A stretch of 41,675 bases of DNA from Alphaproteobacteria bacterium (GCA_024407875.1 JAKSVT010000018.1:1-41675); one strand, 5' to 3'. Positions 15,040 to 32,443 are shown, counted from the first letter of the stretch. Numbers and translations are program-made. Notes: a model not told the origin generated them from the sequence alone.

Positions 15040-15688
15040 GCATTCCTGGTTCAATTACAGGTAAAATTTTAAATACAACAGTTCCTTTATTTTTCAAGAA
15101 CGCATTCTTTGGCCAACAAACACCTGTATTTAAAGCAACAGGAACTACAGGAACATTTAATTTTTCATATAAGAAACCAACACCTGGGTTATATAAAGGC
15201 TCTGCACCTACTGGTCTACGCGTTCCCTCTGGGAAAATAATAACTGGTCTATGTTTAGCTAAACGTTTTTCAGAATACTTAAGCATTTTTCTCATAGCTT
15301 TAGTTCCTGATTTTCTGTCAATTGGAATACTTCCCTCAATCAACAAAGATAATCCAAAGAAAGGCAAGAACAATAGTTCTTTCTTTAAAACGAAAACAGC
15401 TCTTGGAAAGATTGTAAAAAGATACATAGTCTCTAGAGCTGATTGATGCTTAGATGCCACAATAAATTTATTACCAGAAGGAATATTTTCTTTTCCTTCA
15501 ACTCTAATTTTTACATTACAGAAAACTCTTAAACCAAAAGCAACAGAATGTCCCCAAACTATAGCCCCTATTAACTTAATACAAACTGGCGCCCAGAAGA
15601 ACAAATGTAGCCAAGTACAAATAAACACTGTACTTAAGAAATAGCAAAACATAAAGAATATAGAACCAATTAATCTCACTTTGGACAA
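14978..15688 (-). CDS. plsC: 1-acyl-sn-glycerol-3-phosphate acyltransferase
   Basis: It acylates lysophosphatidate to phosphatidate in membrane lipid synthesis; inner-membrane associated. The 236-residue protein has one or two N-terminal hydrophobic segments. The catalytic motif is H81-X4-E86 in SKHQSALET, the HX4E variant of the usual HX4D, frequent in alphaproteobacterial PlsC. FPEGTRR (152-158) binds the glycerol phosphate. It is the last gene of ftsE-ftsX-DUF218-plsC, overlaps the DUF218 gene by 13 bases, and its stop abuts the bidirectional terminator. Confidence 0.92.
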   Translation of the reverse strand: MSKVRLIGSIFFMFCYFLSTVFICTWLHLFFWAPVCIKLIGAIVWGHSVAFGLRVFCNVKIRVEGKENIPSGNKFIVASKHQSALETMYLFTIFPRAVFVLKKELLFLPFFGLSLLIEGSIPIDRKSGTKAMRKMLKYSEKRLAKHRPVIIFPEGTRRPVGAEPLYNPGVGFLYEKLNVPVVPVALNTGVCWPKNAFLKNKGTVVFKILPVIEPGMPKREFLKEVQSKIEDACNKL

Positions 15689-16299
15689 TCCTTACTTAAA
15701 TCAACTTTTTTATTTGGAATATGGAATAAATACATAATTTTTACAGCTAAAAATTTATGATATTCTTCTAACATCAATCCTGCACTACCAGGCCATTTCC
15801 ACCAACTATCATGCATAAACTTTTCTGGAAAAACAGGATGCAATACAATTTTTATATCAGGCAATTCATGTTTAAATTCAATTTTTGATCTTGGAATATG
15901 ATAACCTGCTGTTACTAATCTAATAGATTTAAAATGATTTCTTTCAATCCAATCCTTGCTTTCAATAGCATTTTCTTTAGTATTGCACGCAACGTGGCCT
16001 AAAGTAATCTTATCAACTATTTCTTGAGGATAGTCATCTAATGTTTGAGCTATAGACATCCAATTAGTTTTCTTATTAACGCCTGAGATAAACAACTTTT
16101 CTGCTAAACCTTGTTTTAATAAATTTACAGAAACTTTTAATCTATCCGTTCCACCAGTTAAAGATACTATAGCATCTGTTTTTTCATCTGGCGATTGTAT
16201 AGGCATTCTTACATGTTTAGCAAAGTCCAACAAACCAATTAGCCAAAACAAAAAAGCTAATGAAATTATTCCTATAAAAACAATTCGACGCTTTGACAA
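15676..16299 (-). CDS. DUF218 / YdcF family protein (ElyC/SanA-like)
   Basis: A 207-residue protein with an N-terminal signal anchor (IVFIGIISLAFLFWLIGLL) and a periplasmic DUF218 domain. Motifs include DAIVSLTGGTDRLKVSVNLL, AEKLFISGVN, NTKENAIESKDWI and RLVTAGYHIPRSKIEF, the family pattern from the GG loop to TxxYHxxR. Family members such as SanA and ElyC affect envelope barrier function or lipid-carrier metabolism, but the reaction is not settled. It sits 13 bases downstream of ftsX and overlaps plsC, a conserved alphaproteobacterial order. Confidence 0.85.
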   Translation of the reverse strand: MSKRRIVFIGIISLAFLFWLIGLLDFAKHVRMPIQSPDEKTDAIVSLTGGTDRLKVSVNLLKQGLAEKLFISGVNKKTNWMSIAQTLDDYPQEIVDKITLGHVACNTKENAIESKDWIERNHFKSIRLVTAGYHIPRSKIEFKHELPDIKIVLHPVFPEKFMHDSWWKWPGSAGLMLEEYHKFLAVKIMYLFHIPNKKVDLSKDCPK

Positions 16300-16312
16300 A
16301 GCAACCTCAAGA

Positions 16313-17212
16313 TTATAACATCTTCTTTAATGTTCTATGAACAGCCCAATAAGAAGTAATAACTGACAACACTATAGCTAAAAAAGGAACACAAATCAAG
16401 GCTAACCATCCCAGTGTGTCAAATTGTGCACTTACTAGCAGGCCTCCTTGGATTTCTCTTACTATTGATGAAATCTTATATAATATAGGTATTGCCAAGA
16501 AAAACCCTATCATTCCACCAACAGAAGATAAAATTGCTGTTCTAATTGCATATTGTTCAGCTATATATGAATCTTGAGCCCCAATTAAATGCAGCAATTC
16601 AATAATAGGCTTATGAACAGCCATTGATGTGCAAGAAACATAAATAACAATTGCTGACGTTGTTAAAATCACTAATAACAACATTATTGAGCCTAAATCA
16701 TCCAATCTAGAAATAAGCTCAATTAATTTATTTAGCCACTTTTTGTGAATATCAAGAGTAGCATTAGGAACCCCTTCTCTTAAATTTTGACGCAAAGTAT
16801 CTAAATTTACAGAAACATTTTTCATTAACTGAACATCAATCAATGCAGGCATTGGTAAATCTTCATATTCAACACTATCACCAAGCCAAGGTTTTAATAA
16901 GTCTTTCATTTGACGATCTGTCAATAGATTTGCTGATTTAACACCTGCAGTTTTTCTCAAAATTGCCAAAGCTTCTTCAGTTTCAATTTGTGTTCTACGT
17001 TTATCTATACCATTTTCATCTTCAATTGGTAAAATTTGAACAGTTAAAGACCCTGAAACAGAATCAGTCCATTTTGACAGCATTGAATTTAATGTCATAG
17101 TTGCTGCTGTAGTTAATGTAGCAAAGAATACCATCAGCATAACCATCCAAGGTAAAAACCAAGCTAAAGAGTCCTTTGCAAAAGGCAATTCTGCATTTTT
17201 TCTAAAAATCAT
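16313..17212 (-). CDS. ftsX: Cell division protein FtsX
   Basis: The membrane partner of FtsE. FtsEX sits at the divisome and activates periplasmic peptidoglycan hydrolases. The 299-residue protein has the FtsX topology: a membrane segment near residues 16-40, a periplasmic domain to about residue 165, then three segments (near 175-198, 225-248 and 265-290). The motif GAQDSYIAEQYAIRTAIL between segments two and three is typical. Its ATG overlaps the ftsE stop by four bases, so expression is coupled. Confidence 0.92.
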   Translation of the reverse strand: MIFRKNAELPFAKDSLAWFLPWMVMLMVFFATLTTAATMTLNSMLSKWTDSVSGSLTVQILPIEDENGIDKRRTQIETEEALAILRKTAGVKSANLLTDRQMKDLLKPWLGDSVEYEDLPMPALIDVQLMKNVSVNLDTLRQNLREGVPNATLDIHKKWLNKLIELISRLDDLGSIMLLLVILTTSAIVIYVSCTSMAVHKPIIELLHLIGAQDSYIAEQYAIRTAILSSVGGMIGFFLAIPILYKISSIVREIQGGLLVSAQFDTLGWLALICVPFLAIVLSVITSYWAVHRTLKKML

Positions 17213-17916
17213 TTGTCCCCCTTATCTTGTGGCATAAAACCAGCAGGATAAATAGCTAATCTTCCATTTGTTAAGTGCATTCTTGGAAAATTAAAAGCTT
17301 TAATCAAATTTTCGTTATGAGTAGCAATTACAATTGTTGTATTTCTTTTATTTAATTCTTCAAACAATCTTAATAATCTTAAAGCTGATTTATCATCCAT
17401 ATTACCTGTAGGTTCATCCGCCAATAATAATTCAGGTCTATTAATAATAGCTCTACAAATAGCAACACTTTGTTTTTGACCGCCAGATAAAGCCTCAGGT
17501 TTAGTTTTTAATCTATCACCTAAACCAACCCAATTTAATAATTCTACTACTCTTTTCTTTATATCCGCTTCACTCATTCCTGATAATCTAAGAGGTAAAG
17601 CTACATTATCAAAAATAGATAAATGATCTAACAATCTAAAATCTTGGAAAACCACACCGATTCTTCTACGAAGTTCAGGCAAGTCTTCTCTTGGGGTTAC
17701 TGAAATTGTTTTTCCAAACATTCTAACTTGGCCTCTAGTTTGTGATTGAGCCAAATATAATAATGACAGCAAAGAAGTTTTTCCAGCTCCACTTTCACCA
17801 GTTAAAAAATGAAAAGAACCTACTGGCAAATTAAATGTGATATTCTTTAAAACTTCTGCATCAGTACCATAACGCAAACCAACGCCATCGAACTCTATCA
17901 GATTTTCTGTACTCAC
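17209..17916 (-). CDS. ftsE: Cell division ATP-binding protein FtsE
   Basis: The cytoplasmic ABC ATPase of FtsEX, which powers hydrolase activation at the septum. The 235 residues contain Walker A (GESGAGKTS, from residue 40), the FtsE-type Q-loop VVFQDFRLLD, the signature LSGGQKQSVAICRA and Walker B LLLADEPTGNMD. The signature differs from the usual LSGGQQQRVAIARA at two or three positions. It is the first gene of a four-gene operon, divergent from the zinc-ribbon gene across a 135-base AT-rich gap with no other visible feature. Confidence 0.95.
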   Translation of the reverse strand: MSTENLIEFDGVGLRYGTDAEVLKNITFNLPVGSFHFLTGESGAGKTSLLSLLYLAQSQTRGQVRMFGKTISVTPREDLPELRRRIGVVFQDFRLLDHLSIFDNVALPLRLSGMSEADIKKRVVELLNWVGLGDRLKTKPEALSGGQKQSVAICRAIINRPELLLADEPTGNMDDKSALRLLRLFEELNKRNTTIVIATHNENLIKAFNFPRMHLTNGRLAIYPAGFMPQDKGDK

Positions 17917-18051
17917 AACAGCACTCCATAATTTTTTATGTTATTTAGCATTCATTAAACATTTTATATTAATTTAATACATATATATATTTAAAAAAAT
18001 ATAAATTTAAAGTAAAATATCCTCCATCTAATAAATATAAGGATTCTTTTA

Positions 18052-19092
18052 ATGTTATTTACTTGTCCGAAATGTCATACAACTTATAATGTACCTGACG
18101 AATTAATGGGTGATGCATCTAGAGTACGTTGTGCATCTTGCGGACACGAATGGGATATTACAGAACAACGAGCTTCCTCCTCAGCAGAAGCTTACAACAC
18201 ACCATCTGCTGAAGATTTATTACAAACAGAAAATTTAGAAAATCAACAAGAAGAAGTTTCTTCTAATAATGAACAAGCAATTTCTGATGCTGATAGTTTT
18301 GCAATTTTACAACAAGAGATGTCTGATTTAGATCATGATTCACAAGACAACGATCTCGTAGACAAGCTTTCTCCAGGCCATCTTGAACCAGCGGTTGAAG
18401 AATTAATTAATGGAGACACATTAGACATTAACAAACATAGTATATCTGATTACGAGCCTAATCAAAAAAATGCTGACAATAAGGAAGGCAACTCAGAAAA
18501 TAATCCTGAAACTCCAACTATTGAGGGTGGAGATGAAAGTCTAAACATTGAAGAAATTTTAGCTAGAGTAGATATTGAAAAAGAAGCTGCTGAGGAAAGA
18601 GAAAAAAATTTGGAATATGAAGAAAGAAAGAAAAAATTTGAAGCCTCTGAAAAAGTAAGACTTCTCATCGAAAATCAAAAGATTAAAAAGAAAATTCGTT
18701 TATTCTACTTAATTTTTGTTTCTTTAGCATCACTAGGTGTATATTTATACTTCTTCACACCCCTTGCTAAGTTTCCTGTTGTTATTCAATCAGTTTCATC
18801 AAAAACCATTGAACGTGATTATGAAGTCACTTTAGAAGTTGCTGCTCAAATTACAAACAATGCCTCAAAAGATATAACTATTGCAGATTTACAAATCACA
18901 TATTTTGATGCTTCAGGTAAACCTTTATCAAAACAAGTAATAAAAGGTTCTGGTAGAACATTTAAAGCAAAGGAAAACGTTACAATTAATTACTCTTTAG
19001 AAAGACCTCCTTCATTTGCTAAAAGAGCTCTTTTAAAAATGGGAAAATCTAGCTCAGTGATACTACTGGATATATCTCCAAAAGATCCTTAA
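18052..19092 (+). CDS. MJ0042-type zinc-ribbon, single-pass membrane protein
   Basis: A 346-residue protein with an N-terminal MJ0042 zinc ribbon (C5-x2-C8 and C27-x2-C30 in FTCPKCH and RCASCGHEW). A long acidic low-complexity stretch (residues ~45-170) follows, then a charged coiled-coil-like helix (~170-215), a membrane span (LFYLIFVSLASLGVYLYFF) and a C-terminal domain like the DUF3426 portion of related alphaproteobacterial proteins (DLQITYFDASGKPLSK). AAGGAT precedes the ATG. The zinc ribbon would be cytoplasmic and the tail periplasmic. The function is unknown; a regulatory or division link is guessed only from its place next to ftsEX. Its last 44 bases overlap lysA antisense. Confidence 0.85.
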   Translation: MLFTCPKCHTTYNVPDELMGDASRVRCASCGHEWDITEQRASSSAEAYNTPSAEDLLQTENLENQQEEVSSNNEQAISDADSFAILQQEMSDLDHDSQDNDLVDKLSPGHLEPAVEELINGDTLDINKHSISDYEPNQKNADNKEGNSENNPETPTIEGGDESLNIEEILARVDIEKEAAEEREKNLEYEERKKKFEASEKVRLLIENQKIKKKIRLFYLIFVSLASLGVYLYFFTPLAKFPVVIQSVSSKTIERDYEVTLEVAAQITNNASKDITIADLQITYFDASGKPLSKQVIKGSGRTFKAKENVTINYSLERPPSFAKRALLKMGKSSSVILLDISPKDP

Positions 19093-20284
19093 TCGTTTGA
19101 CGATTTCTAATTATTTCAAATTTTTCGTCTTTGATCATGACCTCTGCACACAAAGGATGACCATTATATGTTGATGACATAACTGCGCCATAAGCACCAG
19201 CGTTGCCTATTCCTAAATAATCACCTTCACTTAGCTCTAAAATTTCTCTGTTAGTAGCAAAACTGTCTGACGATTCACAAATAGGACCAACTACATCATA
19301 AACTACATTCTTTTCATTACCATTTGGTTCAATTTTATCAATAGGATGATATGCATCATATAGTGCAGGTCTAATTAAATCATTCATTCCCGCATCAATA
19401 ATAGCAAACTGCTTAGATTTTGTTTTCTTTATTCTTATTATTTTTCCAACTAATACACCACAAGTTGCACTGATATAACGTCCAGGTTCAAAAACAAATT
19501 CACCACTAAAATCACCTAAACATTCTTTCAATATTTCCACATATCTCTTTGGAGGCAAAGGTTTTTGATTTGGTTCATAAACAACGCCTAATCCGCCACC
19601 CAAATCAATAGTGTTTATATTAACACCATCCTCTTTTAAGAAATCTAGCATTTTTTTAACTTTTAAAAATGTTTCTTTAAAAGGAGCTTCATCTAAAATT
19701 TGAGAACCTACATGAATTTCTATTCCATGTAAATTAATAAAATCATTATTTTTATACTTAGTAAAAAGTTCTCTTGCCAAGTCCCAATCAATACCAAATT
19801 TATTTTCAGATTTACCTGTTGTAATTTTCGCATGAGTATGAGCATCAACATTTGGATTTATACGAATTCCAACATTAGACTTTTTACCCATTTCTTTTGA
19901 AATTTTGTAAATGGTTTCAAGCTCTTCTTCTGATTCAGCATTTAATTGTTTAATTCCTACATCAATTGCTTTTTTTATCTCTTCACAAGATTTTCCAACG
20001 CCTGAAAAAACAATCTTAGATGGATCAACACCACAATATAGAGCTAAATCTAATTCTCCTCCTGATACAATATCTGCACCAGCGCCTAAATTTGAGAGTA
20101 TTTTAACAATATTTGGATTTGAATTACTTTTAACAGCAAAACAAACTGTAGTATTTTGCTTAAGCAATTTTGTTGCATCATTAAATTCATTAAATTTTTT
20201 TGTTAATTCCTCATAAGAATAAACAAAAACAGGAGTACCCGTTTTAGCAACAATATCATTAACTTTTACTTTTCCAAAATCCAT
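19049..20284 (-). CDS. lysA: Diaminopimelate decarboxylase
   Basis: A PLP enzyme that decarboxylates meso-diaminopimelate to L-lysine, the last step of the pathway begun by dapA. The 411 residues cover the alanine-racemase-like barrel and the C-terminal beta domain. The PLP lysine is in CFAVKSNSNP. HVGSQI, DLGGGLGV, FEPGRYI, GPICESSD (catalytic Cys/Glu from the partner subunit) and GAYGAVMSSTYN are all present. GGGG precedes the ATG. It is 10 bases downstream of the lptM-like gene and overlaps the convergent zinc-ribbon gene at the 3' end. Confidence 0.96.
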   Translation of the reverse strand: MDFGKVKVNDIVAKTGTPVFVYSYEELTKKFNEFNDATKLLKQNTTVCFAVKSNSNPNIVKILSNLGAGADIVSGGELDLALYCGVDPSKIVFSGVGKSCEEIKKAIDVGIKQLNAESEEELETIYKISKEMGKKSNVGIRINPNVDAHTHAKITTGKSENKFGIDWDLARELFTKYKNNDFINLHGIEIHVGSQILDEAPFKETFLKVKKMLDFLKEDGVNINTIDLGGGLGVVYEPNQKPLPPKRYVEILKECLGDFSGEFVFEPGRYISATCGVLVGKIIRIKKTKSKQFAIIDAGMNDLIRPALYDAYHPIDKIEPNGNEKNVVYDVVGPICESSDSFATNREILELSEGDYLGIGNAGAYGAVMSSTYNGHPLCAEVMIKDEKFEIIRNRQTIKDLLEIYPVVSLS

Positions 20285-20690: not shown

Positions 20691-20865
20691 AATAACAAAT
20701 CCTAAAATTATTATCGATTTTATATATCATAAAAGAATTACAAAAATCAAGAATCTCTAAAATTACAAATAATAAAAAGTCTTGTTTTTTAAATTTAATG
20801 TTAAGCAATTTTAAATAAATTTAAATTAGACTGTAAAAAAAAGTTTTAAAAAGGGAGTTCTTAAA

Positions 20866-22395
20866 ATGAGCCGCTTTACCTTGTCTTTATTGATTTTAGC
20901 AGGTTTATGTATAAGCACTGGCAAAAATGCAAATGCTCAGCAATCAAGTGCTCGAGAAGCAATGGATGCCGCTATTGAACAATCAAACGGGGAATATTCT
21001 GAAATAGATATGCCTTATTTATGGTCATTAGGCATGCAACAAAAAGCATGGAATAAACCTATGGAACATCTAGGAGAAGGTCAAACAAAACCAGGATATT
21101 CTAGATATTTCTGGACACCTGATTTAGTGCTGCCTATTCGTATTCGTGAAGGAATGCACACATTAATCAACTTCCCTGCTTGGGAATACATTGAAAATGT
21201 ATTTGTTGGAAATGAAAACGGATTTGGCGTACAAAAAGTTGCATCAAACGCTTTAATGGTTTATGCAAGCAATGCTGAATTAGTTGGAATGGATACAAAT
21301 ATGATGGTATTTGGTCGTTCCGGAAATAGATATGTATTTTATTTAAGAAGTGAAACCTTTAACACAGACAGAATTACAAATGCTGTTGTAGATATTGTAG
21401 TAAATGACAACAAGTATGTACCAGATGATTCTGGAAGAACTCCATTCTCAGAAGGAGCTGTTGGAGCAGGATCAATTGGTGGATCAGGTGCAAATGGAAC
21501 AGGTTTTGGTGCACAATATGGAAACAACTCCAAAAAGAAGAAAAATAATAGTGACGATGATTGGTTAAAAGATATTGAAGTCGACCCTGAAAAAATAAAA
21601 TTTGATATTGATGTATTTATACCAAATCCTGATGATTATGATATTGCACCAGAAAGAGTATGGCGCGATGAAATATTTACATATATTGATTTTGGCACAA
21701 GAGCATTATCAATGCTACAACGCCCAATTGTAAATATTATAACAGATAATTCAGAAACACCTGTTGGATTTAGAACACGTGGTCCAAATGGACGATTAAT
21801 AGTTGTTGAAGCAATTGGTGATTTAGTATTAAGAAACGGCAAAAAATTAGTTTGCTTAAAAATTAGAAAAGATCCAACTTTTGGCTTAGATTGGACAGAA
21901 TATGAAAAATCAGTACAGCCAAAACGCGATGATCCAAAATTCAATATTAATCAAGCTCAAGGTCAAAGCATGATGCAAAATGCAAACATGACACCATATC
22001 CAATGAATAACATGGGTGGTGTAGCATATCCAGGAATGAATATGGCTCAAATGAATGCTATGATGCAAGTTCAAAAACAAGCTGGAACCAAAAATGCAGG
22101 ATCAAATTTTGGAGCAAGATATAGACAAACAGTTCAAGAAAATATTGCTGTTGAATTAGCTCAAGACTCAAACATTGCAACTTTAGAAAAGAAATGGGAA
22201 GGATTAGCAAGAAAGAATAAAGATCTTTTAAGCAATTATGAACCTTATTATTCTTTAGATACAGCTGCAGAAGGTGAAGCCCGCGATTTATTTAGATTAA
22301 GAATTGGACCAGTAGAATCAATTCAAGCAGGTGACACTTTATGTAATAAATTAGCTAAACGTGGAATTACATGCGTAGTTGTTAGAACACAATGA
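20866..22395 (+). CDS. virB9: VirB9/TrbG-like type IV secretion protein with a C-terminal SPOR domain
   Basis: The likely outer-membrane-core component of a type IV secretion complex. The signal peptide MSRFTLSLLILAGLCISTG ends near ANA|QQ (residue 24). A VirB9 N-terminal beta domain spans roughly 82-185 (IRIREGMHTLINFP, VFVGNENGFGVQ, RSGNRYVFYLRSET). A Gly/Ser/Lys linker precedes the VirB9 C-terminal domain, ~240-345 (PERVWRDEIFTYIDF, RTRGPNGRLIVVEAIGDLVL). A Met/Gln/Asn-rich region (~365-420) follows. The last ~80 residues are a typical alphaproteobacterial SPOR domain (KKWEGLARKNKDLLSNYEP, DLFRLRIGPVESIQAGDTLC, ITCVVV). SPOR domains bind denuded glycans, and a fusion to VirB9 is unusual. 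AAGGGAG precedes the ATG. First gene of the 20866-32378 operon; 175 AT-rich bases upstream. Confidence 0.82.
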   Translation: MSRFTLSLLILAGLCISTGKNANAQQSSAREAMDAAIEQSNGEYSEIDMPYLWSLGMQQKAWNKPMEHLGEGQTKPGYSRYFWTPDLVLPIRIREGMHTLINFPAWEYIENVFVGNENGFGVQKVASNALMVYASNAELVGMDTNMMVFGRSGNRYVFYLRSETFNTDRITNAVVDIVVNDNKYVPDDSGRTPFSEGAVGAGSIGGSGANGTGFGAQYGNNSKKKKNNSDDDWLKDIEVDPEKIKFDIDVFIPNPDDYDIAPERVWRDEIFTYIDFGTRALSMLQRPIVNIITDNSETPVGFRTRGPNGRLIVVEAIGDLVLRNGKKLVCLKIRKDPTFGLDWTEYEKSVQPKRDDPKFNINQAQGQSMMQNANMTPYPMNNMGGVAYPGMNMAQMNAMMQVQKQAGTKNAGSNFGARYRQTVQENIAVELAQDSNIATLEKKWEGLARKNKDLLSNYEPYYSLDTAAEGEARDLFRLRIGPVESIQAGDTLCNKLAKRGITCVVVRTQ

Positions 22396-22422
22396 GACCT
22401 TAAGGCCAAGGATCAATAAAAA

Positions 22423-25400
22423 ATGCGAAACGATGAAGAAAAAGAGGAACAACTCTTAATTGGTACTGAAGAACAATATCTCGAAAAATCAAACAAACGT
22501 TGGTTGATTTTCGGAATTGTAATGTTTTTTCTATTCTTAATCAGTGTTTGTATATATTTATTAGGTGGAAATGACGAGATTGCAGATGGAAAGCTTTCTG
22601 TTGGAACACAAAGTGAAGCTAACACTGTAGTTAAAAGTGGTGATACTGATCTTACAGATTGGGAAGAAGATCAAAATACAGCTCATGCAGAATCATCTGT
22701 AAAAATCAATGTAACTCCAGAAAAACTAAGTTTTGATCAAGTTGTCTTAGGAACAATCGCTGAAGGTGCTATTACCGTTTCACCTGGTCAAGGAAGCAGA
22801 ATATCTATTTTAGATGTTAAATTTGAAAACATGCCTGATTCAGATAACGGTGACGTATTTACATTAGATAGTAAATGTAAACCAACAGAAATCTTATCAG
22901 GTGATACATCCTGTCAAATAAACGTTAAATGGGATCCAAAAACAGCAAGAACCATTTCAGCTAACTTATTGATTAAATGGCGTAATGAATCTATTGGTGG
23001 AACAAGCAACAATTTTTATGTTCCTGTAAGTGCAATGGCTATAGATACTTCATTATGCGGAGTTTGTGATGAAGCACCTGGTGGTGGCGGAAGCATTGTT
23101 GACCAATTAAGAGCAAAAGGAAAATTAATATTAGGACCTGATGGAAAACCAATTGGATACGCTGATGAAAACGGCGTAGTTTATGGTTTAGATGGAAAAC
23201 GTATTGGAACGTTAAGACCTGATGGCAAAGTATATGATGATGATGGATATGTAATTGGCGTTGCCGAAGGAACAAAAATAGCTCTTGGCGAAGGTGGCAA
23301 AATCATTGGAAACATATTACCTGATGGAAGAGTAATTGATAAAAATGGTAAATTAGTTGGATACGCTCTTCAAGACGGAACCATTATCGATATGGATGGT
23401 AATATAATTGGTTCAGCTATAAAAACAGGACCTGTTGTAAACAAATTTGGACATATAATCGGTAATGCAATGCCAGATGGCAAAGTTCTAAACGCAGGAA
23501 ATGTAGTTGGATATATAGAGCCTGATGGATCAGTTATAAATGAGCAATATGAAATACTTGGTTCTTTACTTCCAATGGGAACAGTTGTTGATGTATTAGG
23601 AAAAGTACGAGGTATTGTATTACCTGAAGCAACAATAGCTAATGCTGGTGGTGAAACTGTAGGAAGAGTATCACCAAATGGAACAGCAATATCTAACGAT
23701 AATGAACCTTTTGGACATGTAGTAGAAGAAGGATTAGCAATTGGACCTGGATGTAAATTCTTAGGAAGAATTAGCACTGATGGTTCAGTTATGAACCAAA
23801 ACAAAACTATTGGTCATGTAAACAATAACAATTTAATTTTAGACTCAGGAAATAATGTAATTGGTGGCGCTGTAAAAGAAGGAATCATTATTGACCTAAG
23901 TGGTAAAGTAATTGGTAGAGTTGATAAATCAGGAAATGCTGTTGACTTTAAAGAAAACTCTTTAGGTTGTTTATTACCTAATGGGATGATTGTTAATGAA
24001 GCTCAAGAAGTTGTTGCCGGTGTAATGCCAAAAGGCACTGTAGTTGCATCAAATTGTGGATTTGCTGGAAGAGTATATCCTGATGGAACTGTTATATTTA
24101 ATAATGAAGAACATGGTAGAGTAACTCCAGATGGAACAGTAATTGATGAAGCTCATAATATCATCGGTGCAGTATCAAAGAATGGTGTTGCAGTTGCTGG
24201 CGGTTGTAAAATAATTGGTTTAAACTCAATTGATGGCGATATAGTTGATTTATCATCAGAAACAATAAATGGTTGTATTAGGGCTGATGGTCAAGTAGCA
24301 TCCGAACAAGGTGTAATAATCGGTGGTTTTCCTAAAAACTACACAGTAATCGGATCAGATGGAAGATTAAATGGTTTCGTCGATGAAAATGGAAATGTAG
24401 TTGACAGAAACGGCAAAAAAACATCTTGTGCCGATTGGACAGGATTAGCATTAAATAACAATCAAACATACGGCTTTATGCTTCCAAGCAATTCAGCTTT
24501 AGATAGAGATGGTCATACAATTGGTTGGACATTTGGTGATGGTATAGTTAAATCAACTGATGGTACAACTGTTGGTAAAGTAATGCCAAGCTCCGATGTA
24601 GTTGATAATAATGGAGCTCAAATAGCTAGATTAACACCAGAAGGATTAGCTCTAAATTCAGCATGTGGAATTTTAGGACGTATCTATAAAGATGGTCGTG
24701 TTATAAATGATAACTTTGAAAGAGTTGGCTATATTACGTTTAGTAACACAATTTTAGATAAAGAAGAGAAATTTATAGGTCGTGTTGCTACAGCTAAATA
24801 TGGTATTAATGGTCAAAACAAATATATTGGATATGTAGATGAAAACGGTGCTTTAATAAATCCTCAAGGAGAAAAAGTCGGCTGTTTAAGACCTGACAAT
24901 ATCTTTGTAGATGATAATGAAAAATTTGTTGCAGGAGAACTTAAAACTGGTGTTGCTGTAAATGAAACAACAAATTTATATGCACGTGGTGATGTAATCG
25001 CAAAGGCAAGCGACCTACCTGTAGATGCATTCATTGGAACTGTTGGAATAAGTTCATATATCCAAACTCCTGAAAAGAAAATTACTGGTGGTATTGTTCC
25101 TCCAGGTGCTGCAGTTTTAGACATAAAAACATCAAAAGTTATAGGTAAATTACTTCCTGATGGTACAGCAATAAATAAAGCTTCCAAAATATTTGGTAAA
25201 TTAAGAATGCCTGGTGGAGAAGTTATCGACAAAGCTGGAAAAGTTGTAGGTAAAATCTTTGTTGGTTTAAGACAAGTAATTGGTCCAAATGGAGAAATTA
25301 TTGGTGTTGTTTTAGATGATGGAACTGTTATCGATAAAGATGGCAAAGTTATCGGAGCAGCAACCTTAGATGGAAAAGTTTTTGATGAAAATGGAAATTC

Positions 25401-28400
25401 AATTGGTGAAATTTTACCTGTTGGAATGCCTGTAATTGGTTTAGATGGAAAAATTATGGGATATGTCGGCGTAAATGGTGAAATCGTTGACGAAGAAGGA
25501 AATCCTGTATTAGGAAAAAATGGTAAGCCATTAAGATATATCGGCAATGGAATGGTTGTCGATGAAAGTGGCAATGTAATAGGAACTGTAATTGGAGAAG
25601 GAATTGTTGTTGATTATACTAATAATGTAATTGGTATAATTGATGATACAGGCAACATAAAATCCAAATCAAATGTACCATTAGAACACAAACTAAAATC
25701 CGATAATACGGTCGTCGATAATACAGCAACAGAAATTGGTAGAGGTATTTTTAATTCTGTAGCTGTTGATAGCAAATGTAAAATTTTAGGCTCAATGAGC
25801 AAAGGTGGTAAAGTTATAAATAAGACTGGTGAAGAAATCGGTCAAATAATGTATGACAGAGCTATCTTAGACAATGAATACAAACAAATTGGTGTAATGT
25901 TGCCAAATGACAACATAATTGACGAACCTTGTCAAATTATTGGTAAAGTTTCACAAAATGGAAAAGCTCTAAATGATAGAAATACAGAACTAGGATGTGT
26001 AAACTTTGACAACTTCGTTCAAGATAGTGACGGTAAAACAATTGGAACAATGATTGTTCGTGGGCCTGCAATTGGATTTGATGGAAAGAGAATTGGCCGT
26101 GTAGTTTCAAGCGGTGAAATCATTAATGATGATGGTGAATCTATAGGTTGCTACGGAAAGAAAGGTGCTATTTACAACAAGAAAAGAGAAATTATTGGTG
26201 TTAGTGATTTACTAAAATACGCTATTAATAACCAAGGTAAAGTTGTTGGAAGAGTTGTAGGTAATAAGTATGCAATTAATAGAGATAGCAATTTAAAGGT
26301 CGGCGAATTAAACGGAAGACAGATTAAAGAAAAAGATTCCAATATCGGTGAATTAACGTATTCTGGACGTAGAGTAATTGGAATTGATGGAAAAATCGTT
26401 GGTACTGTTTTGCCAATAGGTGAAGTTGTTGATGATAGTGGTAAATTACTAGGTACGACAACATCTAGAACATTAGCATATACTCCTGACAATAAATTCT
26501 TAGGAAGAGTTGTACCATTAGGAGATGAATGTAAAAATGCATCAGGTAAAGTATTAGGTAAAGTAAACTTCGATGGTACAATTATTGATGCAAATGGAGA
26601 CGTAATTGGTCGTATGATGGCTAGAGGTAATGCAATTAGCAACTCTGGCGAAGAAATGTGTTCTGTTAAAATATTAAGCACAAGAAATGGAGGCTTATTA
26701 GGAACACCTATATATGATGCTAATGGTAATTTAATTGGTTATGCTGATGAAAACGGCGTCGTAAGAGACATAAATGGAAACGTTATTGGAAAATTATTAC
26801 CTGATGGTAGAGTAGTAGACAATAATGGTAATGTTGTTGGATTTGCAGGTACTCCTGTTTATGATGCTAATGGCAACTTAATAGGATTTGCAGGTGAAGA
26901 CGGTATCGTTAGAGACTTAAATGGAAAAGAAATAGGAAAACTGTTACCTGATGGAAAAGTCGTAGATAATAATGGTAATGTAATCGGCTTTGCTGGTACT
27001 CCTGTTTACGATGCTAATGGTAAATTAATTGGATTTGCCGATGAAAATGGTATCGTTAGAGATCTAAATGGAAAAGTCATAGGCAAAAAATTATCAGATG
27101 GAAAAGTTGTAGATGAAGATGGAAAACTATTAGGTTTTTCAGGAACACCAATATACGATGAAAATGGTAATTTAATTGGTTATGCTGATGAAAATGGCGT
27201 CGTTAGAGACTTTAATGGTAATGTAATAGGAAAATTATTACCTGATGGCAGAGTATTAGATAAAAATGGAAAAGTAATTGGCTTTGCAGGAAGCCCTGTT
27301 TATGACAAAGACGGTAATTTAATTGGCTTTGCTGATGCTACTGGAACCGTTAGAGATTTAAGTGGTAACGTCATTGGAAGAAGGTTAGCTGATGGAAGTG
27401 TTGTTGATAGTAAAAACAACGTGGTTGGTTATGCAGGAACACCTGTTTATGATAAAGAAGGTAAAATCATAGGCTTTGCTGATGCTACTGGAACTGTTAG
27501 AGATACAACAGGAAAAATCATTGGAAAAATGAGACCAGATGGTACAGTAGTTGATGCATCTGGAAAAGTAATTGGAAGAGCAAAAGCTGGCGTTAGCAAA
27601 AAAGCTAATGTTGCTGCAAAAAAAGTTAAATTAGCAGTTTCAAAAGATGGCAAATTCTTAGGTATTGTTGGTGATGACAACTTAGTAAGAGATGCTGAAG
27701 GTAAAATTATTGGCAAAGTTCTAGATGATGGCTCAGTTGTAGATTTAGAAGGAAATGTAGTTGGATCAACAATTGAAGGCGAAGCTGTATTTGATGATTC
27801 AGGAAACTTAATTGGTGTAATATCCAAAGATGGTACTGTATATGATGTAAATGGTGTAGTAATTGGACATATCAACGAAAAAGGCGAAATTATTGATGAA
27901 AAAGGTAATATCGTTGGAACATGGTCTGGTGGAAAATTCACACCTGGAAATGCATCAGGAAAACGCAAATTCCATTTCGGTGATAATAACGATAAAATCG
28001 GATATGTTGACGAAAAAGGAAATGTATACGATGAAAATGGAAAATTAATAGGACACATCGGAGAAGATGGAATAATCTATGATTTAGATGGAAATCCTAT
28101 TGGTGAACCTTATTTTGATGATGAAATTGGTCCAGATGGAAAACCTAAAAATAAAAAAGGTGCAGAAATCTACGGCAAATTTGACCCAAGTGGGTATAAA
28201 TACATGGGTGGTCGTGGAGGAAACTCTGGATTTGGAAACAAGAATAAGAGATACGACCCTGTTAAAGTAAAGGAACTTCAAGCTAAACAATTAGCATACA
28301 GAAAAGCTATTAGACCAGGTATTACTGCAATAGAAAGCGAAGAAGAAAGCAAAAACGCTCTATTAAAGAAACAACATAAAGCTAATAGTTGGAAAGATTT

Positions 28401-29346
28401 AGAAATTGAAAAGAATGTTTCTTCTTATAGAGTTGATATGAGCAGAATGATTTTAGCGGATAAAGCTATACCTGCTGTTTTAACAAGATCTATTGATTCA
28501 AGATATCAAGGAGCTCCTGCATCTGCTATAGTTGAAAGAAACGTCTATGCTGAAAATGGCAGAAAAGTGATAATTCCAGCAGGCTCAAGATTAATTGGTA
28601 AAGTTAACCAATCATCTGATGCTGGTGGTTCAGCCGCTTCTTTCGCTGTTAAATTAGACATCCAATGGAAACGATTAATACGTCCAGATGGTGCAGCATT
28701 CACATTTGAAGAAGGATCTAGTGGAGATTCATCAGGTAGAGGTGGTGTAGCAGGTTATGTAAACTTACAATTACTCAAGAAATATACATTACCTTTGTTA
28801 ACAAGCTCACTTAAATCAGGTGTATTAATTCAAATGGCTTCTAAAGACAAACCTGAAGTTGGTAAAGATGGCCAAGTTGCATTGTCAGATAGACAACAAG
28901 CAAACCAAGATGCACGTGATCAGTTCTCTGATGATATGGAATCATTAATTGATGATATGAGAGAATTGTTGTATAATTCAATTAAACCTGTATTATTCAT
29001 TCCTTCTGGTACAAGAATAACAGTATATTCAAATGCAGATTTATGGCTTCGTTCAGAAGTAGAAGATGATAATCCAGATGATGGCTATTCTAAAGGAAAA
29101 GGCTTAATTAATGAAGCTCATCCTGAAATGAAAGGTGGTAAACCAACAAACAGGAGTTCCGTTTCTGATAGTTCAACAGATGACGCACAACAAGGTAATA
29201 ACCAGAATGGTCAAAGTGCTGCTGATGCTAATGCTCAAAAGCAAATATATTATAACAATTATGGTTCACAACCACCACCGCAGCAACAGTCAACATTACC
29301 ACCTGTTCAACCGCCACCTAAAAAAGACGCACCAGATTTGTTTTAA
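22423..29346 (+). CDS. virB10: Giant repeat-containing VirB10/TrbI protein (2307 aa)
   Basis: The bridging subunit of a type IV secretion core, about five times the usual VirB10 length. It has a ~26-residue cytoplasmic start, a membrane span (27-49) and an Ig-like domain (~95-208; FDQVVLGTIAEGAITV, CKPTEILSGDTSCQINVKW) recalling ASPM/HYDIN-type domains. Then come about 1675 residues of Asp/Gly repeats (from ~234), a charged helix (~1945-1995) and the TrbI beta-barrel domain (~2000-2215; SSYRVDMSRMILADKAIPAV, VIIPAGSRLIGKV, FIPSGTRITVYSN), ending in a Gln/Pro-rich tail. Giant repeat VirB10s are known, such as Helicobacter CagY and the repeat-bearing DotG/IcmE, but these repeats differ. AAGGA precedes the ATG; 27 bases follow virB9. 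The frame is intact throughout. Confidence 0.88.
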   Translation: MRNDEEKEEQLLIGTEEQYLEKSNKRWLIFGIVMFFLFLISVCIYLLGGNDEIADGKLSVGTQSEANTVVKSGDTDLTDWEEDQNTAHAESSVKINVTPEKLSFDQVVLGTIAEGAITVSPGQGSRISILDVKFENMPDSDNGDVFTLDSKCKPTEILSGDTSCQINVKWDPKTARTISANLLIKWRNESIGGTSNNFYVPVSAMAIDTSLCGVCDEAPGGGGSIVDQLRAKGKLILGPDGKPIGYADENGVVYGLDGKRIGTLRPDGKVYDDDGYVIGVAEGTKIALGEGGKIIGNILPDGRVIDKNGKLVGYALQDGTIIDMDGNIIGSAIKTGPVVNKFGHIIGNAMPDGKVLNAGNVVGYIEPDGSVINEQYEILGSLLPMGTVVDVLGKVRGIVLPEATIANAGGETVGRVSPNGTAISNDNEPFGHVVEEGLAIGPGCKFLGRISTDGSVMNQNKTIGHVNNNNLILDSGNNVIGGAVKEGIIIDLSGKVIGRVDKSGNAVDFKENSLGCLLPNGMIVNEAQEVVAGVMPKGTVVASNCGFAGRVYPDGTVIFNNEEHGRVTPDGTVIDEAHNIIGAVSKNGVAVAGGCKIIGLNSIDGDIVDLSSETINGCIRADGQVASEQGVIIGGFPKNYTVIGSDGRLNGFVDENGNVVDRNGKKTSCADWTGLALNNNQTYGFMLPSNSALDRDGHTIGWTFGDGIVKSTDGTTVGKVMPSSDVVDNNGAQIARLTPEGLALNSACGILGRIYKDGRVINDNFERVGYITFSNTILDKEEKFIGRVATAKYGINGQNKYIGYVDENGALINPQGEKVGCLRPDNIFVDDNEKFVAGELKTGVAVNETTNLYARGDVIAKASDLPVDAFIGTVGISSYIQTPEKKITGGIVPPGAAVLDIKTSKVIGKLLPDGTAINKASKIFGKLRMPGGEVIDKAGKVVGKIFVGLRQVIGPNGEIIGVVLDDGTVIDKDGKVIGAATLDGKVFDENGNSIGEILPVGMPVIGLDGKIMGYVGVNGEIVDEEGNPVLGKNGKPLRYIGNGMVVDESGNVIGTVIGEGIVVDYTNNVIGIIDDTGNIKSKSNVPLEHKLKSDNTVVDNTATEIGRGIFNSVAVDSKCKILGSMSKGGKVINKTGEEIGQIMYDRAILDNEYKQIGVMLPNDNIIDEPCQIIGKVSQNGKALNDRNTELGCVNFDNFVQDSDGKTIGTMIVRGPAIGFDGKRIGRVVSSGEIINDDGESIGCYGKKGAIYNKKREIIGVSDLLKYAINNQGKVVGRVVGNKYAINRDSNLKVGELNGRQIKEKDSNIGELTYSGRRVIGIDGKIVGTVLPIGEVVDDSGKLLGTTTSRTLAYTPDNKFLGRVVPLGDECKNASGKVLGKVNFDGTIIDANGDVIGRMMARGNAISNSGEEMCSVKILSTRNGGLLGTPIYDANGNLIGYADENGVVRDINGNVIGKLLPDGRVVDNNGNVVGFAGTPVYDANGNLIGFAGEDGIVRDLNGKEIGKLLPDGKVVDNNGNVIGFAGTPVYDANGKLIGFADENGIVRDLNGKVIGKKLSDGKVVDEDGKLLGFSGTPIYDENGNLIGYADENGVVRDFNGNVIGKLLPDGRVLDKNGKVIGFAGSPVYDKDGNLIGFADATGTVRDLSGNVIGRRLADGSVVDSKNNVVGYAGTPVYDKEGKIIGFADATGTVRDTTGKIIGKMRPDGTVVDASGKVIGRAKAGVSKKANVAAKKVKLAVSKDGKFLGIVGDDNLVRDAEGKIIGKVLDDGSVVDLEGNVVGSTIEGEAVFDDSGNLIGVISKDGTVYDVNGVVIGHINEKGEIIDEKGNIVGTWSGGKFTPGNASGKRKFHFGDNNDKIGYVDEKGNVYDENGKLIGHIGEDGIIYDLDGNPIGEPYFDDEIGPDGKPKNKKGAEIYGKFDPSGYKYMGGRGGNSGFGNKNKRYDPVKVKELQAKQLAYRKAIRPGITAIESEEESKNALLKKQHKANSWKDLEIEKNVSSYRVDMSRMILADKAIPAVLTRSIDSRYQGAPASAIVERNVYAENGRKVIIPAGSRLIGKVNQSSDAGGSAASFAVKLDIQWKRLIRPDGAAFTFEEGSSGDSSGRGGVAGYVNLQLLKKYTLPLLTSSLKSGVLIQMASKDKPEVGKDGQVALSDRQQANQDARDQFSDDMESLIDDMRELLYNSIKPVLFIPSGTRITVYSNADLWLRSEVEDDNPDDGYSKGKGLINEAHPEMKGGKPTNRSSVSDSSTDDAQQGNNQNGQSAADANAQKQIYYNNYGSQPPPQQQSTLPPVQPPPKKDAPDLF
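23122..28150 (+). repeat. Coding repeat region of the giant VirB10: ~16-17-aa Asp/Gly units
   Basis: Degenerate in-frame repeats of the form G-x-V-x-D-x-x-G-x-x-I-G-x-x-x-x-D fill about 5 kb. From total length and unit size I estimate around one hundred units. Three units make a super-unit of about 50 residues. The stretch to about 26700 is diverged and contains all the repeat-region cysteines; the stretch after it is more uniform. Similar GkVvDkdGnviG repeats occur in DUF3659-type proteins of fungi and bacteria, a resemblance recalled rather than searched. Confidence 0.9.
26704..27585 (+). repeat. Six tandem 147-bp repeats within virB10
   Basis: Six head-to-tail copies begin at 26704, 26851, 26998, 27145, 27292 and 27439. 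Each encodes 49 residues, starting (T/S)P(I/V)YD and ending (V/I/L)(V/I/L)G(F/Y/R)(A/S) (protein residues 1428-1721). Copies 1-4 are the most alike, with blocks such as GCTGATGAAAATGG shared; copies 5 and 6 share DATGTVRD. Unit length is a multiple of three, so gain or loss of copies would keep the frame. Confidence 0.92.
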
Positions 29347-29357
29347 CGGGGGAAAAA

Positions 29358-30335
29358 ATGTCTTCAGATCCGTTTCAAGTATTAAGGTCAACTCTACGAT
29401 ATTTATCATATTGGTATGAACAAGATAACGTAGAAGAAGTTGCAATAAACCGCCCTAATGAAATATGGCTTCGTTTACGTGGTCGTAGAGCTCACCCATG
29501 GGCATGTCAATCTGATAAGAACCTTTCAAGGACTTATTTAACCGACATCATGCATATTATTGCAAATACATTCGAATTACCTTTTGATCCTGAATGTGGT
29601 TCACCAGCAGTATATGCAACATTACCTGGAGACCACCGTTTTACAGGAATTGCTGGTAAAAACGTAATGTATGATAACGAAGATTTAACTGGTGGAATTG
29701 CAATGGCAATTCGTGTTCACTCAGAAGAATTAAAATTCGGATTAGATGCTTATGGTTTAAAACAAGGTGAACGACTTCAAAAATTAAATAAATTAGCTGA
29801 AGTTGAAAACCCTGAAGATCCATATGAACGTTTATTATTATCTATTAAACGTGGCGATCATATTTTAGTTTCTGGTGCTACAGCTACAGGTAAAACAACA
29901 TTTTTAAACAACTTACTTACAATTCTAGAGCCTCATAAAAGAGTTTTAACAATTGAAGATACTCGAGAATTGATTGTTCCTCATCCTAATCATGTTCATT
30001 TAGTATTATCTCGTACAGAACAGACTAATACAATGACCTACCCAAAGCTTATCGACTTAGTTGTGCGTTTTACTCCTGATGCTATTATTGGTGGTGAAAT
30101 TTCAACAGCTAACGCTGGCGCATTATGGGAATTAATGGGATCAGGACATGATAACTGTTTTGCAACAATCCATGCTGAAAATTCTGAAGCTGCATATAAA
30201 GCATTTACAGATAGAATCTTACACTGCTATCCAACAATTGATCGTGAAAAAACTATTGCAGAAATGCATGAAAAATTGCGTGTTGTCCAAATTAACCGTC
30301 AAGGCAATATACGTGCTGTAACAGAGGTAACCTAA
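29358..30335 (+). CDS. virB11: VirB11-family type IV secretion ATPase
   Basis: The hexameric ATPase that energises secretion or assembly at the cytoplasmic face of the inner membrane. At 325 residues it has typical length. The N-terminal domain (residues 1-~150; VEEVAINRPNEIWLRLRG) is VirB11-like. Walker A is SGATATGKTT (K179), the Asp box is LTIEDTRELIVPHPNHVHL, Walker B is DAIIGGEIST (E247), and the His box is GSGHDNCFATIHAENS (H264, H272). GATATGKT replaces the common G(G/P)TGSGKT but keeps the essential GKT. It starts 11 bases after virB10 with a GGGGG ribosome site. No VirB4 or VirD4 partner is in the window. Confidence 0.93.
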   Translation: MSSDPFQVLRSTLRYLSYWYEQDNVEEVAINRPNEIWLRLRGRRAHPWACQSDKNLSRTYLTDIMHIIANTFELPFDPECGSPAVYATLPGDHRFTGIAGKNVMYDNEDLTGGIAMAIRVHSEELKFGLDAYGLKQGERLQKLNKLAEVENPEDPYERLLLSIKRGDHILVSGATATGKTTFLNNLLTILEPHKRVLTIEDTRELIVPHPNHVHLVLSRTEQTNTMTYPKLIDLVVRFTPDAIIGGEISTANAGALWELMGSGHDNCFATIHAENSEAAYKAFTDRILHCYPTIDREKTIAEMHEKLRVVQINRQGNIRAVTEVT

Positions 30336-30359
30336 TAATTCTTACAAAGGGAGGGTACA

Positions 30360-32378
30360 ATGACCGATATGATATCTACTTTACCGGAAATTACACTTCC
30401 TCGTAGCTCAATTAATGCCAACACATTAACGATAGAAGACGCTCCTGAAGTAGTATGTAAGTTACCTTATTACTCTGAGCTTTCTGCAAGAATACAACCA
30501 TCTAAAACTTTAGAAAATAACGCTACTCTTGTTTTGAATTTACCGGAAATAAGCGTAACAGGTGAAAATGAAAAAGTTTTAATACCTATAAATTTTCCAT
30601 TTAGACCTGATGCACCAATTGATTTAATTGTTAGAACTTTACCTGCTGAAAAAAATACAGCTGTATTAAAATTATTATTCTCAAACAATCAATATAATCT
30701 AAATACTCATATACAAAAGAATTTTAGTTCAAACAATTCTAACAATCAAAAACTAAATAGTGATAATATTATAAATAATCAGATTAAAACAAATGTTGAA
30801 GACGTTTATTCTGAAATTGCTCCAATAAAAACTGTTGGTTTCGTAATTAAACTTATTCCTGATCATATTTTTAAAATTGTTCCTGAAATAAACAATCAAA
30901 AAAATTTTAAAATGCATGATGTAAAGATGGAATTAGAAATAACCCCTTCTAACCAAAATTCTTTTACAGAAAGATTAAATGCTTTTATTGATGATCCAAC
31001 ATATGAATATAAAATTCCTGAGGAAACTGCAGAAACCATTGAACCTGAACAAGAAATTGCACAAGAAAAAGTTCAAAATCAAGATGATGGAATCAATGAA
31101 ACTACACCAGCAAAAATCCAACCAATAATAGATGATGATATAGATGTAGATGAATTGTTATTCAAAAAATTGAGAAAGCCTAGTGAAGAAGGAACAAATA
31201 ACGAATTAAATGACGATCAAATAGATGATGAAAGTGAAGCTGCACAAACATTAAATATTTCTGAAAATGTAGAAGAGTCCGTTTCATTAAACGATGAAAG
31301 TATGACAAGTGCTATACACGTACTTAAAAACAACCACTTGAATAATCTCTCTATAAATAAAGACAAAGCTGAAATCGATAGTGTAAAATCTAACGCTGGC
31401 AATGAACAAGTAAACATTCAAGAAATTCCAGAAGTTGATGAACATGATAAAGAAGTTATGACTAGAACAACAATCAACAATTTAAAAAATTGTATTGAAG
31501 AAAGAATTGATGGATTTATTTATCATCCTACGAATTCAAAAATGCCTATTGTAGTCACGAAAATAGGAGCTTTTGCACTTGAAACAAATAATACTATCCC
31601 TGATTTATCTACAATTACAGTAAAAATAAAAAATTTAGAGATACCCCTTGAACAAAATTCTTTAAATTCAATAATTGAAGACGGTGAAAATTTACCTCAT
31701 CCTTTTAAAAATGATTGGAAAGCATTAGGATTTGCAATTGATCGATTAAATGATGCTGATGAAAAATTAGCAAATAGTTTTAAAGATTTAATACCACAAC
31801 CAAATCCTCGATTGGCATCTGCGTTAATCAATTTTATAAGAACTCATCAAAGCAATTTTAATTTTGCTTCATGGGCTGGAGAAAATGCTTACAATATTCT
31901 TTCAAAAATAGATAACGGAAGCAAATTAATAAATAAGATAGAAAAAGATTTCAAATTATCCAGCAAAAAAGCTGTTGATAAATCAGGAAATCCGTGGAAA
32001 GCTTATGATATACCAATCCTAAATGGAAATGCTATTGAGCCTGTATCCCTATATATATGGAGAAATAGCGAAATTGATGAAGAATTATTAAACAAAGTTA
32101 GAATTCAAACCGAAGTAAGATTTGTTCTAGATTTGAATTTATCCAAAATGGGAAAACTTCAATTAGAAGGATTAGCAAACAGATCTAAAAAAACTTTTGC
32201 TCTTACAATTAAACATGAACATAATCTACCAAAAGAATTTGCAATAACATGCCAAGACATTTTTAATCAAACATTATCTGCTATGGCTTATAATGGAACG
32301 CTTAGTGTTAAACAAAGCGATGAATTTATAAAATTTTATCCAGCTGAGGCTAAACAAACCTCAGGTTATTGGGCATAA
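30360..32378 (+). CDS. Acidic 672-aa protein with FliK-like C-terminal region
   Basis: Not firmly recognised. There is no signal peptide or membrane span. The N-terminal ~190 residues are beta-rich. Residues ~215-360 are an acidic, presumably disordered linker. A second folded part begins near 375 with GAFALETNNTIPDLSTITVKI, a pattern seen in FliK-type proteins. The C-terminal ~120 residues (RFVLDLNLSKMGKLQLEGL, FALTIKHEHNLPKEFAITC) have the beta-beta-alpha rhythm of the FliK C-terminal domain, which controls hook length. GGGAGG lies just before the ATG, 24 bases after virB11, and a strong terminator follows the stop. In context it could be a length-control or assembly factor for the VirB9/10/11 complex, or for flagella; both are inference. 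Confidence 0.5.
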   Translation: MTDMISTLPEITLPRSSINANTLTIEDAPEVVCKLPYYSELSARIQPSKTLENNATLVLNLPEISVTGENEKVLIPINFPFRPDAPIDLIVRTLPAEKNTAVLKLLFSNNQYNLNTHIQKNFSSNNSNNQKLNSDNIINNQIKTNVEDVYSEIAPIKTVGFVIKLIPDHIFKIVPEINNQKNFKMHDVKMELEITPSNQNSFTERLNAFIDDPTYEYKIPEETAETIEPEQEIAQEKVQNQDDGINETTPAKIQPIIDDDIDVDELLFKKLRKPSEEGTNNELNDDQIDDESEAAQTLNISENVEESVSLNDESMTSAIHVLKNNHLNNLSINKDKAEIDSVKSNAGNEQVNIQEIPEVDEHDKEVMTRTTINNLKNCIEERIDGFIYHPTNSKMPIVVTKIGAFALETNNTIPDLSTITVKIKNLEIPLEQNSLNSIIEDGENLPHPFKNDWKALGFAIDRLNDADEKLANSFKDLIPQPNPRLASALINFIRTHQSNFNFASWAGENAYNILSKIDNGSKLINKIEKDFKLSSKKAVDKSGNPWKAYDIPILNGNAIEPVSLYIWRNSEIDEELLNKVRIQTEVRFVLDLNLSKMGKLQLEGLANRSKKTFALTIKHEHNLPKEFAITCQDIFNQTLSAMAYNGTLSVKQSDEFIKFYPAEAKQTSGYWA

Positions 32379-32410: not shown

Positions 32411-32443
32411 AAAAAATGTGGAGAATTTTTCTCCACATTTTTT
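32411..32443. terminator. Bidirectional intrinsic terminator closing the virB9-11 operon
   Basis: AAAAAATGTGGAG and CTCCACATTTTTT form a perfect 13-bp stem, extendable to 15 bp with a three-base loop. T runs occur on both strands. It lies 32 bases past the stop of the FliK-like gene and three bases from the stop of the convergent outer-membrane protein gene. Confidence 0.92.

Follow-up and report, generated by a model that had tools for sequence, protein, structure and literature searches.

What kind of machine is encoded by a compact cluster that carries three type IV secretion system (T4SS) genes and stands apart from all others of that system? The cluster, comprising virB9, a giant virB10, virB11 and a fourth gene that belongs to no family, lies in a 41,675-nucleotide stretch of DNA from Alphaproteobacteria bacterium (GCA_024407875.1, JAKSVT010000018.1:1-41675; hereafter the window), which is contig C10 of a 1.77-Mb, 47-contig assembly (G000). 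A reading made from the sequence alone had suggested a separate, non-secretion machine. Our analysis points firmly elsewhere: VirB9, VirB10 and VirB11 very probably form the outer-membrane core and the assembly ATPase of a complete or near-complete, chromosomal and vertically inherited T4SS of the VirB/VirD4 type, which we infer to be active in secretion and whose ancestral operon has been broken up in this genome.

The genes virB9 (20866-22395, 509 a.a.), virB10 (22423-29346, 2307 a.a.), virB11 (29358-30335, 325 a.a.) and the fourth gene, P0004 (30360-32378, 672 a.a.), all lie on the plus strand with gaps of 27, 11 and 24 bp, as tightly spaced as the sequence-only reading had described them. 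The strong terminator proposed to follow them was also found, as a hairpin and a T run at 32411-32443 (+; folding energy -18.9 kcal/mol, z -6.8). Searches with hidden Markov models (HMMs), which had been named as a way of refuting the VirB9 and VirB10 assignments, supported both of these and VirB11. VirB9 matched CagX (PF03524; 1.7e-16, 61 bits against a cut-off of 34), VirB10 matched TrbI (PF03743; 2.6e-27, 96 bits) and ComB10 (2.4e-34), and VirB11, a traffic ATPase with an intact Walker A motif (GATATGKTT), matched TIGR02788 over its full length (3.3e-41, 141 bits, below the equivalog cut-off of 250). In addition, the model of the TrbI/VirB10 outer-membrane-core domain of VirB10 (residues 2010-2209; 28450-29049, +) matched in Foldseek the solved VirB10 cores of the Xanthomonas, R388, pKM101, Cag and ComB systems (6gyb, 1.5e-12; also 8rt6, 6x6k (CagY), 3jqo and 2bhv).

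The observation that no VirB4, VirB6, VirB8 or VirD4 gene is near held for the window and failed for the genome: the genome-wide search that had been proposed as a check found homologues of all four elsewhere (two VirB4, two VirB6, three VirB8 and three VirD4), the outcome expected of a scattered secretion system. Contig C5 carries a VirB2-VirB3-VirB4 set, in which VirB2 scored 26.2 bits against TrbC, just under the cut-off of 27.9, and VirB3 was assigned from its position and its homology to genome G032. C18 carries a VirB8 pair and C6 one more VirB8 (PF04335, over the cut-off), and two tandem TrbL/VirB6-like proteins are encoded on C3. VirD4 copies lie on C3 and C12, the latter (G000:C12:7338-9560, L041) being a VirD4-like coupling protein that is 35-40% identical to the C3 copy and is also present in family members. 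The vir genes of this genome are thus split over C3, C5, C10 and C18 and do not form a single contiguous locus, an arrangement that VirB/VirD4-type systems usually have but do not need, the rvh systems being split as well.

The original arrangement can be read from the relatives. In other family members a virB8-virB8 pair lies directly upstream of virB9, where the window has an AT-rich intergenic region (20691-20865, +) in which the promoter would be expected; a promoter scan of this region found fewer sites than in shuffled sequences and no signal above them. The order B8-B8-B9-B10-B11 is near-invariant in dozens of loci, and in G032, which belongs to another family, VirB2-B3-B4, five secreted proteins and B8-B8-B9-B10 (2831 a.a.)-B11 lie on one contig and one strand. 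This contiguity and the shared order indicate that the window holds one fragment of the ancestral vir operon, which comprised VirB2-B3-B4, several secreted proteins and B8-B8-B9-B10-B11 and has been broken up here by rearrangement. A standard locus split only by the assembly, which had been named as a refutation, was considered and rejected: C18 continues for 262 bp beyond virB8 without virB9 or any window sequence, which speaks against a mere break in the assembly, and flhG abuts its next gene by 4 bp at the site expected for the fourth gene. Relocation is likelier than misassembly, and the break looks genuine.

The components are conserved together. All 12 genomes of the order encode VirB9 (61-70% identity), and the VirB11 sequences of the aligned family members are 92-96% identical; in the VirB9-bearing family members, the C5 VirB4 has orthologues at 77-81% identity and the C3 VirD4 at 79-82%. 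The presence of VirB9 in every genome of the order and the identity of VirB11 above 90% constitute a vertically inherited pattern. A scan of genome contigs for VirB9 recovered 64 loci, nearly all labelled as uncultured Alphaproteobacteria and many with rumen or gut names. When the C-terminal domain of VirB10 was scanned against 385 genomes of the class, the result was cleanly two-peaked: 16 matches at an identity of at least 42% came from ORFs (open reading frames) of 1280-2838 a.a. (one of 669 a.a. near a contig start), and the remaining matches, at 40% or less, came from ORFs of 284-843 a.a. The giant VirB10 thus defines a discrete group that extends across several families, and it is the mark of a single clade of uncultured Alphaproteobacteria, mostly from the gut.

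Several points weigh against the assignment to a VirB/VirD4-type T4SS. No substrate or effector is known for the system, and the assemblies are mostly metagenome-derived. The two VirB6-like proteins on C3 score near the cut-off, one of them just below the gathering score, and VirB5 and VirB7 were not identified, no search having been aimed at either. Genome G003 gave no VirB4 match and only a VirD4 paralogue, gaps that are probably due to a fragmented assembly. Finally, the repeats in the AlphaFold model of VirB10 residues 1380-2224 reach a predicted local distance difference test (pLDDT) value of about 75-85, which is moderate.

The same components could in principle serve DNA transfer, as the mating-pair apparatus of an integrated element that has since decayed and scattered. 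The presence of VirD4, the conjugative NCBIfam names of VirB9 and VirB11, and separate VirB4 loci resembling those of integrative and conjugative elements (ICEs), on C11 and in relatives, are in line with this idea. However, the window set occurs in every genome of the order with the vertical pattern and identities given above, whereas the sets of the ICE type lie apart from it, occur patchily and have diverged far more (VirB4 26-28%), and we consider a conjugation system improbable. Traces of one or more ICEs in this genome (L004:7730-13677 on C11, and C2:1524-3428) comprise a gene resembling an integrase, together with VirB2-B3-B4-like genes and a VirD4 that are likewise separate. A DNA-uptake machine like ComB of Helicobacter is less probable still: ComB10 gave the best score of the VirB10 domain, but ComB operates without VirB11 and VirD4, whereas here VirB11 is encoded inside the operon and VirD4 orthologues are conserved throughout.

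The fourth gene had been read as FliK-like and possibly as a length-control protein, an identity that we tried and discarded. PF02120 (Flg_hook) matched neither P0004 nor any of 15 homologues; the sole PF02120 protein of the genome is encoded on C23 beside the likely flgD and flgE, and an hhalign comparison of P0004 with this single FliK sequence gave a probability of 0.2%. The comparison of gene order across relatives, proposed as a further check, also detached P0004 from the cluster: no homologue follows virB11 in any of the related loci examined, and most lie behind flhA-flhF-flhG in the flagellar locus. P0004 neighbours virB11 only in this genome, and its homologue in G003 sits elsewhere again, so that the position varies. 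Judging from this distribution, P0004 is outside the conserved secretion locus and is probably a relocated bystander that moved in from the flagellar locus, with a function related to the flagellum. The P0004 family (window:30360-32378, L043-L059) has a conserved C-terminal region of 290 residues for which there is no Pfam model, and occurs in many Alphaproteobacteria. The idea that the four genes encode a device of their own across the envelope, in which the length of the VirB10 repeats sets the reach and the fourth protein is ruler-like, is hardly credible: the compact spacing, the strong terminator and the lack of any other T4SS gene in the window would suit it, but the genome encodes VirB2, VirB3, VirB4, two VirB6, a VirB8 pair and VirD4, VirB4 and VirD4 are co-conserved, G032 keeps most of these genes in a single operon, and the supposed ruler lacks both the FliK domain and a place beside virB11 in the relatives.

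Within the T4SS, the most unusual component is VirB10, and its description as a giant repeat protein proved accurate. A hydrophobic helix (residues 15-47), also seen in the AlphaFold model, would anchor the protein in the inner membrane; it is followed by a disordered linker (49-91) and an Ig/ASH/PapD-like domain (93-207), the latter identified by HMM, AlphaFold model and Foldseek. The repeat region (residues about 234-1890; 23122-28092, +) is built on a 17-residue beta-hairpin unit and precedes a linker, the TrbI/VirB10 domain and a disordered C-terminal tail. Both beta-flower families match it (PF21784/PF21785, 146 and 387 bits over 9 and 21 stretches; Bflower_2 at 7.5e-118), as do the NCBIfam YD repeats and DUF3659, and the autocorrelation peaks at 17, 34, 51 and 101 and at 49/98, with closely similar 49-a.a. 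units in tandem at residues about 1425-1715. About a hundred 17-residue hairpins stand in tandem within the protein. The DNA identity between the most similar units is about 69-76%, indicating that the array is not freshly duplicated. Complete single-chain VirB10s range from 1273 to 2831 a.a. (median 2254), and the repeat length is fairly constant between species. In the AlphaFold model of residues 1-640 the helix, the Ig-like domain and the beta repeats are visible, with pLDDT above 90 across most repeats. Foldseek with this N-terminal model returned ASH/PapD structures for the Ig-like domain and, for the repeats, no solved structure that was convincing; a bactofilin matched the repeats weakly by sequence (E 0.001), the comparison with viral structures gave nothing useful, and a PHROGs search gave nothing.

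The cysteines of the repeats are spaced non-randomly. Of the 475 repeat-region cysteines in 54 VirB10 chains, 354 are paired with another at a distance of 71-75 residues, where random positions would give 25; the chains are related, and the count measures conservation rather than independent events. In the window VirB10 the 73-residue spacing runs through residues 444-1243 (window:23752-26151), in a pattern shared by most relatives, and some pairs interleave (545-618 with 595-669; 1119-1192 with 1170-1243). Cysteines 73 residues apart would form disulfide staples between neighbouring turns, and the Ig-like domain and the stapled hairpins would together build a long periplasmic stalk or sheath.

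The described beta-flower fold consists of short beta-hairpins with [DNEQ]xxG tips that assemble into small barrels, each with four to six hairpins (Durairaj et al. 2023, PMC10584680); the present case differs in placing about a hundred tandem hairpins inside a secretion-system subunit. The repeats may be separate closed beads rather than a continuous stalk, a serious possibility that we place somewhat short of even. Bflower_2 matches in 21 stretches, the hairpin and tip pattern agrees with the described fold, and a 73-residue spacing suits the closure of about 4-5 hairpins. On the other hand, the interleaved cysteine pairs are easier to place in a continuous spiral, and Foldseek aligns an Rhs shell protein over a long stretch with a very low template modelling (TM) score.

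VirB9 is also modified. A signal peptide and a CagX/VirB9 domain (residues 80-331) are followed by a low-complexity linker and a C-terminal SPOR domain (462-507) called by Pfam, a peptidoglycan-binding type of domain whose presence within VirB9 is one of the unusual features of the system. In alignments the SPOR block is kept in all sampled relatives with a giant VirB10, and it is absent from G021, an outgroup with an ordinary VirB10. The terminal domain of VirB10 and VirB9 would together form the outer-membrane ring, which the SPOR domain probably seats on the peptidoglycan, and VirB4, VirB11 and VirD4 would drive transport from the inner membrane.

Descriptions of the T4SS place VirB10 at its centre, as the subunit that reaches from the inner to the outer membrane. 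In 12 species (L152-L157, L169-L171, L173-L175), VirB10 is encoded by two ORFs. The product of the first carries the inner-membrane helix and repeats, with NRRN as its last residues; that of the second starts with a signal peptide, in most cases bearing an AxA cleavage motif, and continues with repeats and, where the sequence extends that far, the TrbI domain (for example, L152:11605-15045 and 15047-19537). The second ORF is in a different frame, and its GGAGGA Shine-Dalgarno sequence is located inside the final codons of the first, which makes translational coupling of the two probable. Three loci with contigs ending inside VirB10 (L150, L142 and L168) were not counted, and neither was the two-part VirB10 of L166, the second part of which has no signal peptide. 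In the VirB9 tree, the species with a split VirB10 form one clade, broken only by L150, where VirB10 is cut at the contig end. No single polypeptide can span both membranes in these species; either the halves must bind one another or a continuous bridge chain is not needed. The split challenges the idea of the bridge as one continuous molecule, and the clade is a natural experiment that makes the need for such a bridge testable; a literature search, restricted to open-licence papers, found no report of a split VirB10. Joining these observations, we tentatively propose a new type of T4SS periplasmic stalk or sheath, to which we give close to an even chance: a continuous disulfide-stapled spiral of beta-hairpins would run from the inner-membrane motor to the outer-membrane ring, and one clade would have lost the covalent link between inner and outer parts and kept the machine, so that VirB10 need not be one molecule if the repeat halves dock end to end. 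How VirB10 passes energy from the inner-membrane ATPases to the outer-membrane gate is the question that such a rebuilt and split VirB10 touches.

Compared with known machines, this is not a new kind of system: it is a T4SS in a new form, with a giant VirB10 of beta repeats that one clade has split in two and a VirB9 that ends in a SPOR domain. The same search of open-licence papers returned no description of it. With the VirB/VirD4 (P-type) T4SS it shares homologues of VirB2, B3, B4, B6, B8, B9, B10, B11 and VirD4 and the order B2-B3-B4 ... B8-B9-B10-B11 seen in G032; it differs in the giant repeat VirB10, the SPOR domain of VirB9, the paired VirB8 and VirB6, the several large secreted proteins that relatives encode between B4 and B8 and the scattered loci of this genome. 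VirB10 of the Rickettsiales rvh T4SS is of ordinary size, unlike the giant form here, where moreover only one full VirB9 was found. The rvh system is vertically inherited and chromosomal, lies in islets and has duplicated VirB4, VirB6, VirB8 and VirB9 (PMC2653234). Compared by this description rather than by rvh sequence, the present system is likewise an alphaproteobacterial chromosomal T4SS broken into islets with duplicated components. CagY of Helicobacter pylori is a VirB10 homologue of about 1900 residues with regularly placed cysteines in its repeat region (PMC9371333, PMC10706595). The CagY repeats have been modelled as alpha-helical, whereas HMM and model give 17-residue beta-hairpins of the beta-flower type here; the giant VirB10 is thus not of the CagY type, and its enlargement looks independent. 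Besides that of CagY, this is a second and probably independent way for VirB10 to become giant, and a large tandem use of a recently named repeat. DotG of the Legionella Dot/Icm system, a VirB10 homologue enlarged by repeats, also matches in its C-terminal fold (Foldseek), but here the HMMs assign the components to the VirB type (VirB4 of the CagE/TrbE family, VirB9 and VirB11).

Further genes adjoin the vir loci. The secreted proteins upstream of virB8 stand in tandem at L201:2995-9406 (G032, between VirB4 and VirB8), L131:2209-8232, L152:2-8137 and L170:289-8087; they gave no informative Pfam match, the largest has 1926 a.a. (L170), and they are possibly VirB5-like or surface components. On C5, a type IVb-pilus-like set (PilO, a secretin, TcpQ and an 830-a.a. 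protein; L003:4-7780, G000:C5) is divergent from the adjoining virB2, and homologues of two of its genes occupy the same place in G032 (L201:13089-16000), so that the set may be linked with the secretion system. In the window itself, a run of tolQ, tolR, a 344-a.a. gene in the tolA position, tolB and recD2 lies downstream of the cluster (window:35750-41459), and a flagellin N-terminal domain is found at the left edge (window:1-402).

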